The notes beneath the pieces were generated by a model. It was not told where the DNA came from. It saw only the letters and a list, made by a program, of their open reading frames with translations, and did no database searches. From assembly GCA_017649485.1 (NCBI GenBank), contig JAGCGS010000067.1, positions 1-50,120 of the forward strand: a DNA stretch of 50,120 bases, in the 5' to 3' direction. This DNA comes from Bacteroidaceae bacterium (GTDB taxonomy: Bacteria > Bacteroidota > Bacteroidia > Bacteroidales > Bacteroidaceae). Positions within the stretch are counted from its first letter, which is position 1. Each line of letters starts with the position of its first letter. This document shows, piece by piece, positions 21,618 to 26,234 of the stretch. Both the position numbers and the translations under genes were made by a program.

Positions 21618-22262
21618 TCAGTTGGTACTGTTCTTCAACATCAGGATTTCTTGTTCAGAGAGTCCCATACCTAAGCTCAAGGCGATAGTAAGGTTCACAT
21701 AGGGCAGACCGTCTAAATGCTGGAAACGACTGGCTTCTTGTAGGCCTCCCATACAGAATGATTTGTTCTTAAACTTTTCTGCGCCAAAGTAGTTCTTCAT
21801 GATTTCCAAGTATTTGTGCACATAAGGAGGAGGCAATAACGTCTCGTCAGGAACCAAAAACACACGCTCGATTTCTTCTTTGCAAAACACAACATCAACA
21901 ATCTCAAAGATTCTATCGGCACCAAATGACATGCCTGCAGAGTTGAAACTACAGAAATTGAATCGCCAACAGCCCACATCGGTTGCTCTATTGTCGATAT
22001 CTGCTACTGCAGAGGGAGAGCAATCTGCCAGTCGAGCCAGGGCATTATCACTTATCAAGATGACCATGAACTCCTCTGGGGCAGTTGCCGACACCCCCAT
22101 CATCAAGCCCAGTTGTGCGCAGAAATACGCTAAATCCATATCGGGCATATCTCTTTTCATCTGATTGCTGAGGAAGTTCTTCAAATTGGGAAGACTTTTG
22201 TTGAAGAAATCCACATCAATCACAATGGCATTCTTTGGTAATGTACTTTGTTGTTGTTCCAT
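21618..22262 (-). CDS. Cytosolic protein of unknown function
   Basis: I cannot place this 214-residue protein in a family. It has no signal peptide or membrane segment. It begins MEQQQSTLPKNAIVIDVDF and contains MPDMDLAYFCAQLG, a Phe/Cys-rich FNFCSFNSAGMSFGADRIF segment and a C-terminal helix SEQEILMLKNS. The frame is open for 37 more codons upstream, but ATG 22262 is chosen because the promoter at 22280-22311 lies inside that extension, leaving a leader of about 12 nt. It probably forms its own transcription unit, as gpx downstream has its own promoter. Confidence 0.75.
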   Translation of the reverse strand: MEQQQSTLPKNAIVIDVDFFNKSLPNLKNFLSNQMKRDMPDMDLAYFCAQLGLMMGVSATAPEEFMVILISDNALARLADCSPSAVADIDNRATDVGCWRFNFCSFNSAGMSFGADRIFEIVDVVFCKEEIERVFLVPDETLLPPPYVHKYLEIMKNYFGAEKFKNKSFCMGGLQEASRFQHLDGLPYVNLTIALSLGMGLSEQEILMLKNSTN

Positions 22263-22279
22263 AAAATAAATATCTGCCG

Positions 22280-22311
22280 TAAAGGTAAAGATTATTTTGA
22301 AAACAGCCAAA
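22280..22311 (-). promoter_or_regulatory. Promoter of the unknown gene at 21618-22262
   Basis: TTTG (22308-22311), 20 nt, TACCTTTA (22280-22287) on the minus strand. The -7 box differs from consensus only in its last base. Confidence 0.55.
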
Positions 22312-22360
22312 TTGTCGGAGCATTTTCCAACATAATCCGGGCACTCTACATGGTCAAGAT

Positions 22361-22503
22361 AGTCATTAGTCATTTAGTCAAAATGAATTTCGGATTCGGT
22401 CATTTTGCTCACTATATATAAATATAAATATTTATTATAGTGGCGGAATTTGACAACCAGAAAACGATTTTGACTAATGACTAAATGACTAAATGACTAA
22501 AAA
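22361..22503. repeat. Inverted repeat built of TGACTAA units
   Basis: The left arm at 22361-22384 is an imperfect reverse complement of the right arm at 22467-22500. The right arm is a tandem run of TGACTAA(A) units (four copies from 22471). The 82-bp core is very AT-rich. Function is unknown. Confidence 0.75.
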
Positions 22504-22558
22504 CTCGTCTTGGCGAAAAAAAATGCCCGGACATTCGAAAACCGCAATGGCAGTGTTG

Positions 22559-22566
22559 TATCTTTG
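22559..22566 (+). promoter_or_regulatory. Candidate distal -7 box for the small peptide gene
   Basis: TATCTTTG fits TAnnTTTG. No TTTG at the -33 position. If used, the leader would be about 185 nt and would include the paired repeats. Confidence 0.4.
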
Positions 22567-22607
22567 CATTACTTTTCGAAGTCACCCTCTCCGACCTGCC
22601 AAACGGC

Positions 22608-22642
22608 TTACTTCGGGAAAAACGATGCTTTACTTCGGGAAA
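22608..22642 (+). repeat. Paired 13-bp direct repeats, 22-bp period (copy B)
   Basis: TTACTTCGGGAAA occurs at 22608-22620 and 22630-22642, identical in both halves. Centre-to-centre spacing is two helical turns. It lies 44 bp upstream of the -7 box at 22687, where an activator could bind. Confidence 0.8.
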
Positions 22643-22686
22643 GAGAGTTTTTTTGAGAACTGCTATGATAAACCCAAAAAACTTAT

Positions 22687-22694
22687 TACCTTTG
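22687..22694 (+). promoter_or_regulatory. Candidate proximal -7 box for the small peptide gene
   Basis: TACCTTTG fits TAnnTTTG. The -33 position is not TTTG, as expected for an activator-dependent promoter. The predicted leader is about 58 nt. Confidence 0.45.
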
Positions 22695-22758
22695 CTGCTA
22701 AAGAAATAGTGTGTCGCTTCTCGGGGCGTGGATTAAGAACTTTAAAAACTCAAATGAT

Positions 22759-22989
22759 ATGGAAAAGAATGACAAAAGAGTGCTGCACATAGCACTCGAC
22801 GACGAAGTTAAGAAGGTAAGCATCACTGGCAAAAACGGTGATGAGAAGGTAGTGATGCGTCAGGAGCTGAGCGAGGATGACCTCGAGCAGGCTACGGGTG
22901 CGTTTGGTTCTTATGTCGGTGCTTTTCGCGGTCCTCTTGATCGCGGTCCTCTTGATAATGAATCCTGTATTTGCAAGAGAGACTTCTGA
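22759..22989 (+). CDS. Small peptide with double-glycine-type leader
   Basis: 76-residue product with no database-level recognition on my part. Residues 1-48 resemble the leader of peptides processed by C39-type peptidase/ABC exporters: an acidic helix ending ELSEDDLEQATGA, with Leu-12, Ser-11, acidic -8, Leu-7, hydrophobic -4 and Gly-2/Ala-1, the usual pattern before the cut. Cleavage after Ala48 would release about 28 residues containing a tandem RGPLDRGPLD (from an exact 15-bp DNA duplication) and a CIC pair. The start ATG 22759 is used in preference to an upstream in-frame codon at 22711. It forms a complete unit with its own candidate promoters and a strong terminator at 23041-23078. No exporter, peptidase or modification enzyme is encoded nearby, so the precursor role is an inference. 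A neutral alternative is a small acidic cytosolic protein. Confidence 0.6.
   Translation: MEKNDKRVLHIALDDEVKKVSITGKNGDEKVVMRQELSEDDLEQATGAFGSYVGAFRGPLDRGPLDNESCICKRDF
22927..22956 (+). repeat. Exact 15-bp tandem duplication inside the small peptide gene
   Basis: CGCGGTCCTCTTGAT occurs twice back to back (22927-22941 and 22942-22956), in frame, encoding RGPLD twice. Confidence 0.95.
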
Positions 22990-23040
22990 TAGCAAACGAG
23001 CCACCGAAGCCTACAGAAGGCAAAAGTACTTCTGAAGAAT

Positions 23041-23078
23041 CATAAAACGGGCAGAGCATTAGCTCTGTCCGTTTTATG
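23041..23078. terminator. Strong hairpin terminator after the small peptide gene
   Basis: CATAAAACGG, a G-U pair, then CAGAGC pair with GCTCTG and CCGTTTTATG around the loop ATTA (17-bp stem with no mismatch). The A and T runs are in the stem, so it could act in both directions. Confidence 0.8.
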
Positions 23079-23313
23079 TAGTCTTCACTCAACAACGCCC
23101 TGCGCTTGCAAGCAGCAAGCATGCGATTTTTGACTCAACCCCTAATTAGCATATCTTTTTTAGGTTGATAATTCGTAACCTCGAAACCGCCATTTTGTCG
23201 TTCTATCATCATGTAGTTCAGCCATTTTGACGGAGATTGTCAGTTGGCAAAGATTTTGCGCCCCAAATGATGAAAACTAACACAAAAACAAACGAAGAAA
23301 GGAGAATCGAGAT

Positions 23314-26111: not shown

Positions 26112-26234
26112 ATGAAGAAAAAAAATTACACAAAGCCAATGGTGGTAGTTATCGAAATGCAGAATCAAGCACCGCTCATTTGTCAGAGCCAAGGCGGTAG
26201 TATGCCTGGCGGACAACAAAGAGAGCCATTCTGA
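26112..26234 (+). CDS. 40-residue peptide upstream of fimbrillin genes
   Basis: Small frame too short for many annotation cut-offs. It begins MKKKNYTKPMVVVIEM, continues with a single cysteine in PLICQS and ends with two GG pairs and a polar tail. Its start pattern (MKK-x-Y-x-KP, hydrophobic strand, Glu, Gln-rich turn) resembles short Bacteroidales proteins of unknown function often found before surface-protein genes. It is not an obvious Sec signal. A consensus promoter lies 53 nt upstream, and the first fimbrillin-like gene begins 55 nt downstream with no terminator between them, so it is probably the first gene of that operon. Role unknown. Confidence 0.6.
   Translation: MKKKNYTKPMVVVIEMQNQAPLICQSQGGSMPGGQQREPF

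Follow-up and report, generated by a model that had tools for sequence, protein, structure and literature searches.

A scattered family of putative double-glycine peptide precursors with conserved leaders and divergent cores in gut Bacteroidota

The window analysed in this study is a stretch of 50,120 nucleotides from a Bacteroidaceae bacterium (contig JAGCGS010000067.1 of assembly GCA_017649485.1), and the gene of interest within it, P0001, has neighbours that look by eye like gpx, a 251-aa ORF and clpB (Table 1). A first-pass annotation of the sequence had read P0001 as a stand-alone gene for a 76-residue peptide with a double-glycine-type leader, and an open ATG frame together with family copies in its own genome and in relatives confirms that the gene is real. 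The spacing that had been reported before the cut site of a C39 peptidase was recovered, with L-12, D-8, L-7, A-4, G-2 and A-1 at residues 36-48, and the predicted 28-residue mature part does carry the tandem RGPLD pair (RGPLDRGPLD) and the CIC motif ascribed to it. The window copy deviates from its family in that the Ala at -4 is weakly hydrophobic and in that Ala stands at -1, where 59 of the 62 full-length members end their leaders in GG, while Gly-Ala is counted among the double-glycine motifs in the work on LahT (PMC6363468). When the entire window was scanned by pattern for small ORFs of the GG type, this gene alone was returned, and "stand-alone" is accurate for the window copy; however, the gene belongs to a dispersed family that is invisible from the window. 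Searches of Pfam and NCBIfam (E up to 10) and of PHROGs (E up to 1) gave no match for the window protein, and a frameshifted version of a known protein was rejected on this ground and by the open frame kept in most matches of relatives.

Table 1. Features at and around the precursor gene in the window (G and C numbers are our designations for genomes and contigs)
Feature	Coordinates	Strand	Basis
Precursor gene P0001, 76 aa plus stop	22759..22989	+	ATG ORF; family members in relatives
Leader, residues 1-48, C-terminal end ELSEDDLEQATGA	22759..22902	+	Conservation across 62 full-length members
Predicted released core, 28 residues, FGSYVGAFRGPLDRGPLDNESCICKRDF	22903..22986	+	Cores of most members unrelated; putative cleavage
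Bacteroidetes -7-like box TACCTTTG	22687..22694	+	Consensus form; putative function
Second -7-like box TATCTTTG	22559..22566	+	Putative function
Terminator-like hairpin, 17-bp stem and 4-nt loop	23041..23078	+	z -6.7; 0 of 200 shuffles as stable
Stretch without alignment in the corresponding region of G013, G027 and G029	22246..23153	.	Comparison of sites
5' region and most of leader, 90% DNA identity with C63 paralogue of unrelated core	22648..22886	+	DNA comparison

TAnnTTTG is the -7-type promoter consensus of Bacteroidetes, and a box of this form was found within 160 nt upstream of 26 of the 62 family members, as against 8% of shuffles. With regard to the proposed candidate promoters, the window gene has the two TAnnTTTG boxes of Table 1, and in a generic sigma-70 scan the + strand 5' of the gene gave no site; at the place of the strong terminator that had been called stands the terminator-like hairpin of Table 1. 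The segment with the box at 22559 also lies 3' of a palindrome in G029 and G013. This imperfect palindrome (22360-22499 in the window, DNA fold z -7.1) has diverged relatives in G027, G029, G013, G161 and G770 and is a MITE-like low-copy element unconnected to the precursors; it was rejected as the vehicle of the gene, since such elements are also present in G027, which is leader-negative. Between it and the gene, positions 22607-22645 hold a direct repeat in two copies (TTACTTCGGGAAA), and at 26112-26234 a 40-aa ORF (MKKKNYTKPMVVVIEMQNQAPLICQSQGG...) lies directly upstream of a 313-aa lipoprotein-like ORF.

With the window protein as query, matches were obtained in 4 of 100 genomes, its own included (7 in its own genome, G000, 22 in G008, 19 in G013 and 21 in G029). 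A family profile built from 41 members detected 97 matches in 7 of the 158 genomes of the genus (G000 7, G029 22, G006 1, G013 19, G141 9, G008 23, G161 16), a handful of them partial or stop-containing. The same profile was positive only in the own genome among 393 genomes sampled from the order, and in the own genome and G770 among 399 sampled from the family, these two samples being overlapping sets; G770 belongs to another genus and gave one leader match. The fetched loci held 69 leader ORFs, and after 7 partial ones had been dropped 62 full-length members were left, which are a portion of the existing copies; three of the 62 (L038, L039 and L111) came from outside the genus search, and a 20-residue match at L040 was excluded from membership. 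The named relatives are metagenome-assembled genomes from goat reticulum, sheep rumen and yak omasum, together with a Prevotellaceae one of unstated source. Viral contigs, plasmids and phage records contained no relative, and a phage or plasmid origin was therefore rejected. No description of the leader family was found in the open-access full-text literature, searched with leader strings included, a coverage outside which most subscription papers lie.

The 17 listed loci carry single or tandem copies flanked by genes that look, by eye, like housekeeping or metabolic ones, and among neighbours read in the same way no immunity gene adjoining the precursors was noticed. The site of the window gene is empty in G013, where gpx and clpB (gene names given by eye) flank the 251-aa ORF, a gap of ~0.2 kb separates this ORF from clpB and no precursor is present; gpx and clpB are also found in G029 and G027, with the precursor absent. 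At another site, hpt-adk-obg, copies are found in G000 as well as in G013, and they include two related core types.

The first-pass annotation had called for a check of related genomes for a conserved leader with a variable core, and in this family conservation falls exactly at the GG. Mean pairwise identity across the 62 members (1,891 pairs) was 60% for leaders and 14% for cores, the latter against 13% for shuffled cores. With the cut site as the right-hand anchor of the alignment, 35 of the 46 leader columns were at or below 1.5 bits and the highest reached 2.97, as compared with 3.6-4.1 bits in core columns +1 to +15. All 62 cores are distinct, with lengths of 8-51 residues (mean 22), and at least one Cys occurs in 54 of them; Cys accounts for 2 of 3,024 leader residues versus 80 of 1,362 core residues (5.9%). 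C39 recognition was tested at the positions laid out for LahT (PMC6363468), namely L-12, acidic -8, L-7, hydrophobic -4 and GG, GA or GS at the cut site, with I or M accepted for L and A accepted at -4, and 58 of the 62 members satisfied all of them; in another copy of the window's genome the motif is lost. The generic double-glycine model TIGR01847 did not match the window copy and matched 17 of 41 members at E up to 1, and one of three first-family members examined in detail passed its cut-off (16.2 vs 15.7).

Few cores are common to more than one species, the recurring ones being a core with three Cys that G013 has in common with G141, and a further two that are shared among G029, G008 and G141. 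A recurrent pair of one LG..F....C type and one C...G....C type core was also observed in G013, G000 and G161 (L047 8739-9726, L050 1290-1723 and L070), and is perhaps a two-peptide product. Leaders of a second type, which differ at the N-terminus but finish alike (MATLTxEQIEQKKQ...ELSDEELDSVTGG), were detected in 4 of 20 genomes searched, with 7 copies in G029, 6 in G770 and 1 each in G006 and G008, those of G029 partly adjoining first-type members. Precursors of this second family lie at L044 9253-9576, L136 5207-5870, L137 5799-6047 and elsewhere, and some of their cores look amphipathic by eye.

No exporter had been seen in the window, which is correct; the genome's single C39 match is on contig C17, and the advised search of the same genome for a C39/HlyD/TolC exporter yielded an operon there. 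Its order is a HlyD-like gene, ABC1 with the C39 domain, ABC2, a second adaptor and a TolC-like gene, and an AraC-type gene closes the locus at its far end. The score of ABC1 exceeds the cut-off of the NHLP-exporter model TIGR03796 (882.5, cut-off 853.3), while ABC2 scores 703.3 against TIGR03797 (cut-off 709.4) and HlyD 106 against TIGR03794 (cut-off 156.2), both below the cut-off of a model that is still their best match. Within the genus, TIGR03796 was exceeded in 8 of 158 genomes, including all 7 leader-bearing ones; all 8 exporters have the Cys, His and Asp motifs of C39, and an AraC-type regulator stands beside the exporter in 6 of the 8 loci. The eighth genome, G180, has its exporter at a different locus and gave no leader match, and a pattern scan of that fetched locus (L101 6804-11070) returned no GG small ORF. 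Both the drop from 60% identity in leaders to 14% in cores and the C39-ABC exporter in the genome support the double-glycine precursor reading, and the refuting conditions that the first-pass annotation had set (a core as conserved as the leader with no exporter in the genome, or a frameshifted known protein) do not apply. The product of the window gene is probably a peptide that is secreted by means of a conserved export tag.

The link between leader and exporter is best seen in G027. A ClpC tree built from 21 chosen genomes unites six leader-bearing genomes and G027 in a single clade, inside which G027 is nested (supports of 96-100). A ClpB tree of 24 chosen genomes likewise places G027 among leader-bearing genomes, pairing it with G029 and joining G161 to G013; its G015 row is in a wrong frame and has a very long branch, and the argument on G027 rests on the ClpC tree. 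The search with the window protein found no leader match in G027, and one of its contigs shows an intact M49-peptidase-like gene, ~500 bp, the AraC-type gene, one more gene and leuB- and leuA-like genes, so that this locus is intact but for exactly the five exporter genes, which it lacks. This shared absence of leader and exporter is the best evidence that both belong together. As the leader-bearing genomes of the genus form one clade in both trees, the co-occurrence weighs about as much as a single independent event, namely the loss of both in G027, and not as seven; for the same reason, one clade carrying the trait, no reliance was placed on the Fisher p of 1.9e-11 for exporter co-occurrence.

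A candidate maturase was sought in 20 genomes with the SPASM model TIGR04085, the one maturase family covered, which matched in 17, and presence alone is therefore little informative. In G029, a SPASM gene (L043 5987-7411, - strand) lies directly downstream of two precursors, and its orthologues in G000, G008 and G161 are 64-69% identical, the G000 copy on contig C21 being 65% identical. The window's genome therefore encodes a SPASM maturase, as a radical-SAM/SPASM RiPP of the ranthipeptide/sactipeptide-like kind would require. Maturase genes of this kind occur in 4 of the 158 genus genomes, all of them leader-bearing, with scores of at least 674 bits against 128 for the next best match. Adjacency to precursors was seen in one of the four (G029) and in none of the fetched stretches of G000, G008 and G161; in the window's own genome, precursors, exporter and candidate enzyme are on separate contigs. 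No orthologue was found at E up to 1e-20 in G013, G141 and G006, nor in G027. G013 has 19 precursor copies and is 89% complete, yet it belongs to this group, which speaks against a general role of the enzyme, and Cys is present in 10 of 12 of its cores examined, the frequency of other genomes; since G013 cores are equally Cys-bearing without the maturase, cysteine does not track the enzyme. Its only SPASM match is a 348-aa frame, and one of similar size and score is present in the leader-negative G023. The models closest to the maturase are those of radical-SAM/SPASM peptide maturases (TIGR04463, Clo7bot, PapB), all far under cut-off, and the copy on C21 has TIGR04463 and TIGR04334 as its best ones, again far under their cut-offs. 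PqqD-like domains, which usually bind RiPP leaders, were recognised as an 81-aa ORF 3' of the maturase in G000 and G008 and as a fused domain in G161, one of the three being above the Pfam cut-off and two slightly below; none was seen at the G029 locus. In G029, another SPASM-type protein (L133 6130-7653) adjoins a 99-aa ORF with a Cys-rich end and is possibly a separate modified-peptide locus.

Several precursor copies are mosaic. The upstream and leader segment of Table 1 is common to the window copy and the C63 paralogue, and the cores of the two are unrelated. Between G029 and G008, with dS of 0.8-1.4 in four neighbouring genes and ABC1, 460 of 485 bases are identical from the middle of a leader through the core into the next precursor, and dS at this mosaic is 0.02 in the core versus 0.49 in the leader. 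A block common to G013 and G141 begins inside one leader, spans its core and stops where the next leader ends; beyond the block the cores differ, and among the first 20 matches listed those outside the precursors were short and weak only. In a scan of 52 pairs with similar leader ends, for which the limits were chosen after three example mosaics had been seen, the 5' side without the core was common to 1 pair, the core without the 5' side to 3 pairs (two events) and both to 4. The breakpoints inside leaders suggest that cores have been swapped by recombination. Core dN/dS was dropped as a test of selection, since the two parts of a single gene, leader and core, are not of the same age. We tentatively propose that leader DNA may act as the joint of exchange, with cores as leader-bounded cassettes moving between genes, loci and species, and that a ruminant-gut Bacteroidales clade may thereby keep an open, recombining library of secreted peptides that depends on one exporter and, in part of the species, also on a single promiscuous radical-SAM maturase.

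A single export machine encoded at a distance most likely serves the whole dispersed family, and we have good confidence in a reading in which the window gene is one precursor of a scattered library, addressed by its leader, cut by C39 and exported by one NHLM-type system, with a core that is modified in some species, cores that diverge or are exchanged, and peptides that act on neighbours. The 48-residue leader would be the address, its last 13 residues docking in the C39 peptidase of the single NHLM-type ABC exporter, which would cut at residue 48, after Gly-Ala in the window copy and Gly-Gly in most copies, and the core would leave via ABC1/ABC2, the HlyD-like adaptor and the TolC-like channel. 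In some species at least, a PqqD-guided radical-SAM/SPASM maturase would probably modify the core before export, perhaps at its cysteines. Cores may be free to diverge because the leader alone would be read, and the conserved leader DNA would permit core exchange by recombination.

The main rival reading is that the cores are exported unmodified, in the manner of class II bacteriocins, with disulfides forming extracellularly and the radical-SAM enzyme acting on other substrates, a possibility that we take seriously while rating it somewhat below even. It agrees with the failure to detect maturase orthologues in G013, G141 and G006 and with the likeness of the sole SPASM match of G013 to one in a genome without leaders, but it leaves unexplained why, across 158 genomes, the maturase is restricted to leader-bearing ones, why it adjoins two precursors in G029 and why domains of a leader-binding kind accompany it. 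In the same order, bacteroidetocins offer a precedent for it, being Cys-containing GG peptides encoded with a thiol oxidoreductase (PMC6671954).

Under the library reading, the released peptides would most likely target neighbouring bacteria, and antagonism is favoured over signalling because many different cores per genome suit weapons better. That they are instead cell-cell signals of the producer appears unlikely, even though no immunity gene was noticed next to the precursors, the AraC-type regulator found with most exporters is retained in G027, and pheromones, too, can have double-glycine leaders; as many as 23 family matches per genome, none of the 62 cores repeated and few cores common to different species are unlike signals that require receptors. 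Very improbable is a further reading, in which the C-terminal parts are meaningless tails, frameshifted or decayed, of a family of cytosolic small proteins. It would fit a mean core identity at the level of shuffled sequences and the existence of truncated or GG-less copies, and is countered by the Cys content of the cores and its spread over most of them, by the recurrence of certain cores across species (G013/G141 and G029/G008/G141), and by leaders that terminate in a C39 motif.

Prochlorosin precursors are scattered in the genome, and the window family resembles prochlorosin libraries, but with a new leader. In the cited account, the prochlorosins of marine picocyanobacteria likewise have many precursors with a single leader type, hypervariable cores and one promiscuous enzyme; a Nif11 leader and the LanM enzyme ProcM stand there in place of the new leader and the radical-SAM/SPASM candidate (PMC10783134). 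NHLP and Nif11 precursors with TIGR03794/03796/03797 exporters are described as having a GG preceded by Leu, acidic and Val/Leu positions, a conserved leader with a hypervariable and often Cys-rich core, and export genes of the same type from which precursors can be distant, while their GG ends on average at position 83 (NHLP) or 70 (Nif11), compared with a leader of ~48 aa here (PMC2887384). The window copy gave no match to TIGR03793 or TIGR03798; among 41 members at E up to 1, 6 matched the former (best E 0.069) and 10 the latter (best 0.0073), and three members examined in detail reached at most 14.5 bits against cut-offs of 50.9 and 32.3, with only the last 14-23 leader residues aligned. 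Membership of NHLP or Nif11 was thus rejected and the resemblance retained. NF038167 (CTB family) matched 22 of 41 members at E up to 1 (best 5.2e-6), and in three members examined the match comprised the GG region and first core residues and was below cut-off.

Closer in taxonomy, bacteroidetocins share with our family the order, a GG leader, cysteines and a C39-ABC exporter, while, as described, they are encoded in a compact region with a TM protein, mostly a thiol oxidoreductase, the exporter and peptides of similar size (PMC6671954); such surroundings were not found at the window gene, where the neighbours are the gpx-, 251-aa ORF- and clpB-like ones. Bacteroidales RiPP clusters with PCAT and radical SAM are likewise reported with GG precursors, a C39 transporter and radical-SAM enzymes, which are clustered there and on separate contigs in the window's genome (PMC10352776). 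The double-glycine bacteriocin clusters of cyanobacteria are reported with a C39-ABC protein, a second ABC protein, HlyD and diverse GG precursors, but precursors were sought there within 20 kb of the exporter and here genome-wide (PMC3140520). Since precursors, exporter and candidate enzyme are on different contigs in the window's genome, precursor mining in the neighbourhood of enzymes (cf. PMC13289728) would overlook these genes.

Prochlorosins are, according to the account cited above, a known case of one leader with a large hypervariable library, and their biological role is not known (PMC10783134). The family reported here would add a second one from the gut Bacteroidota, distinguished by its new leader, by an exporter encoded away from its precursors and by signs that cores are exchanged, and would make the library logic testable in another phylum.
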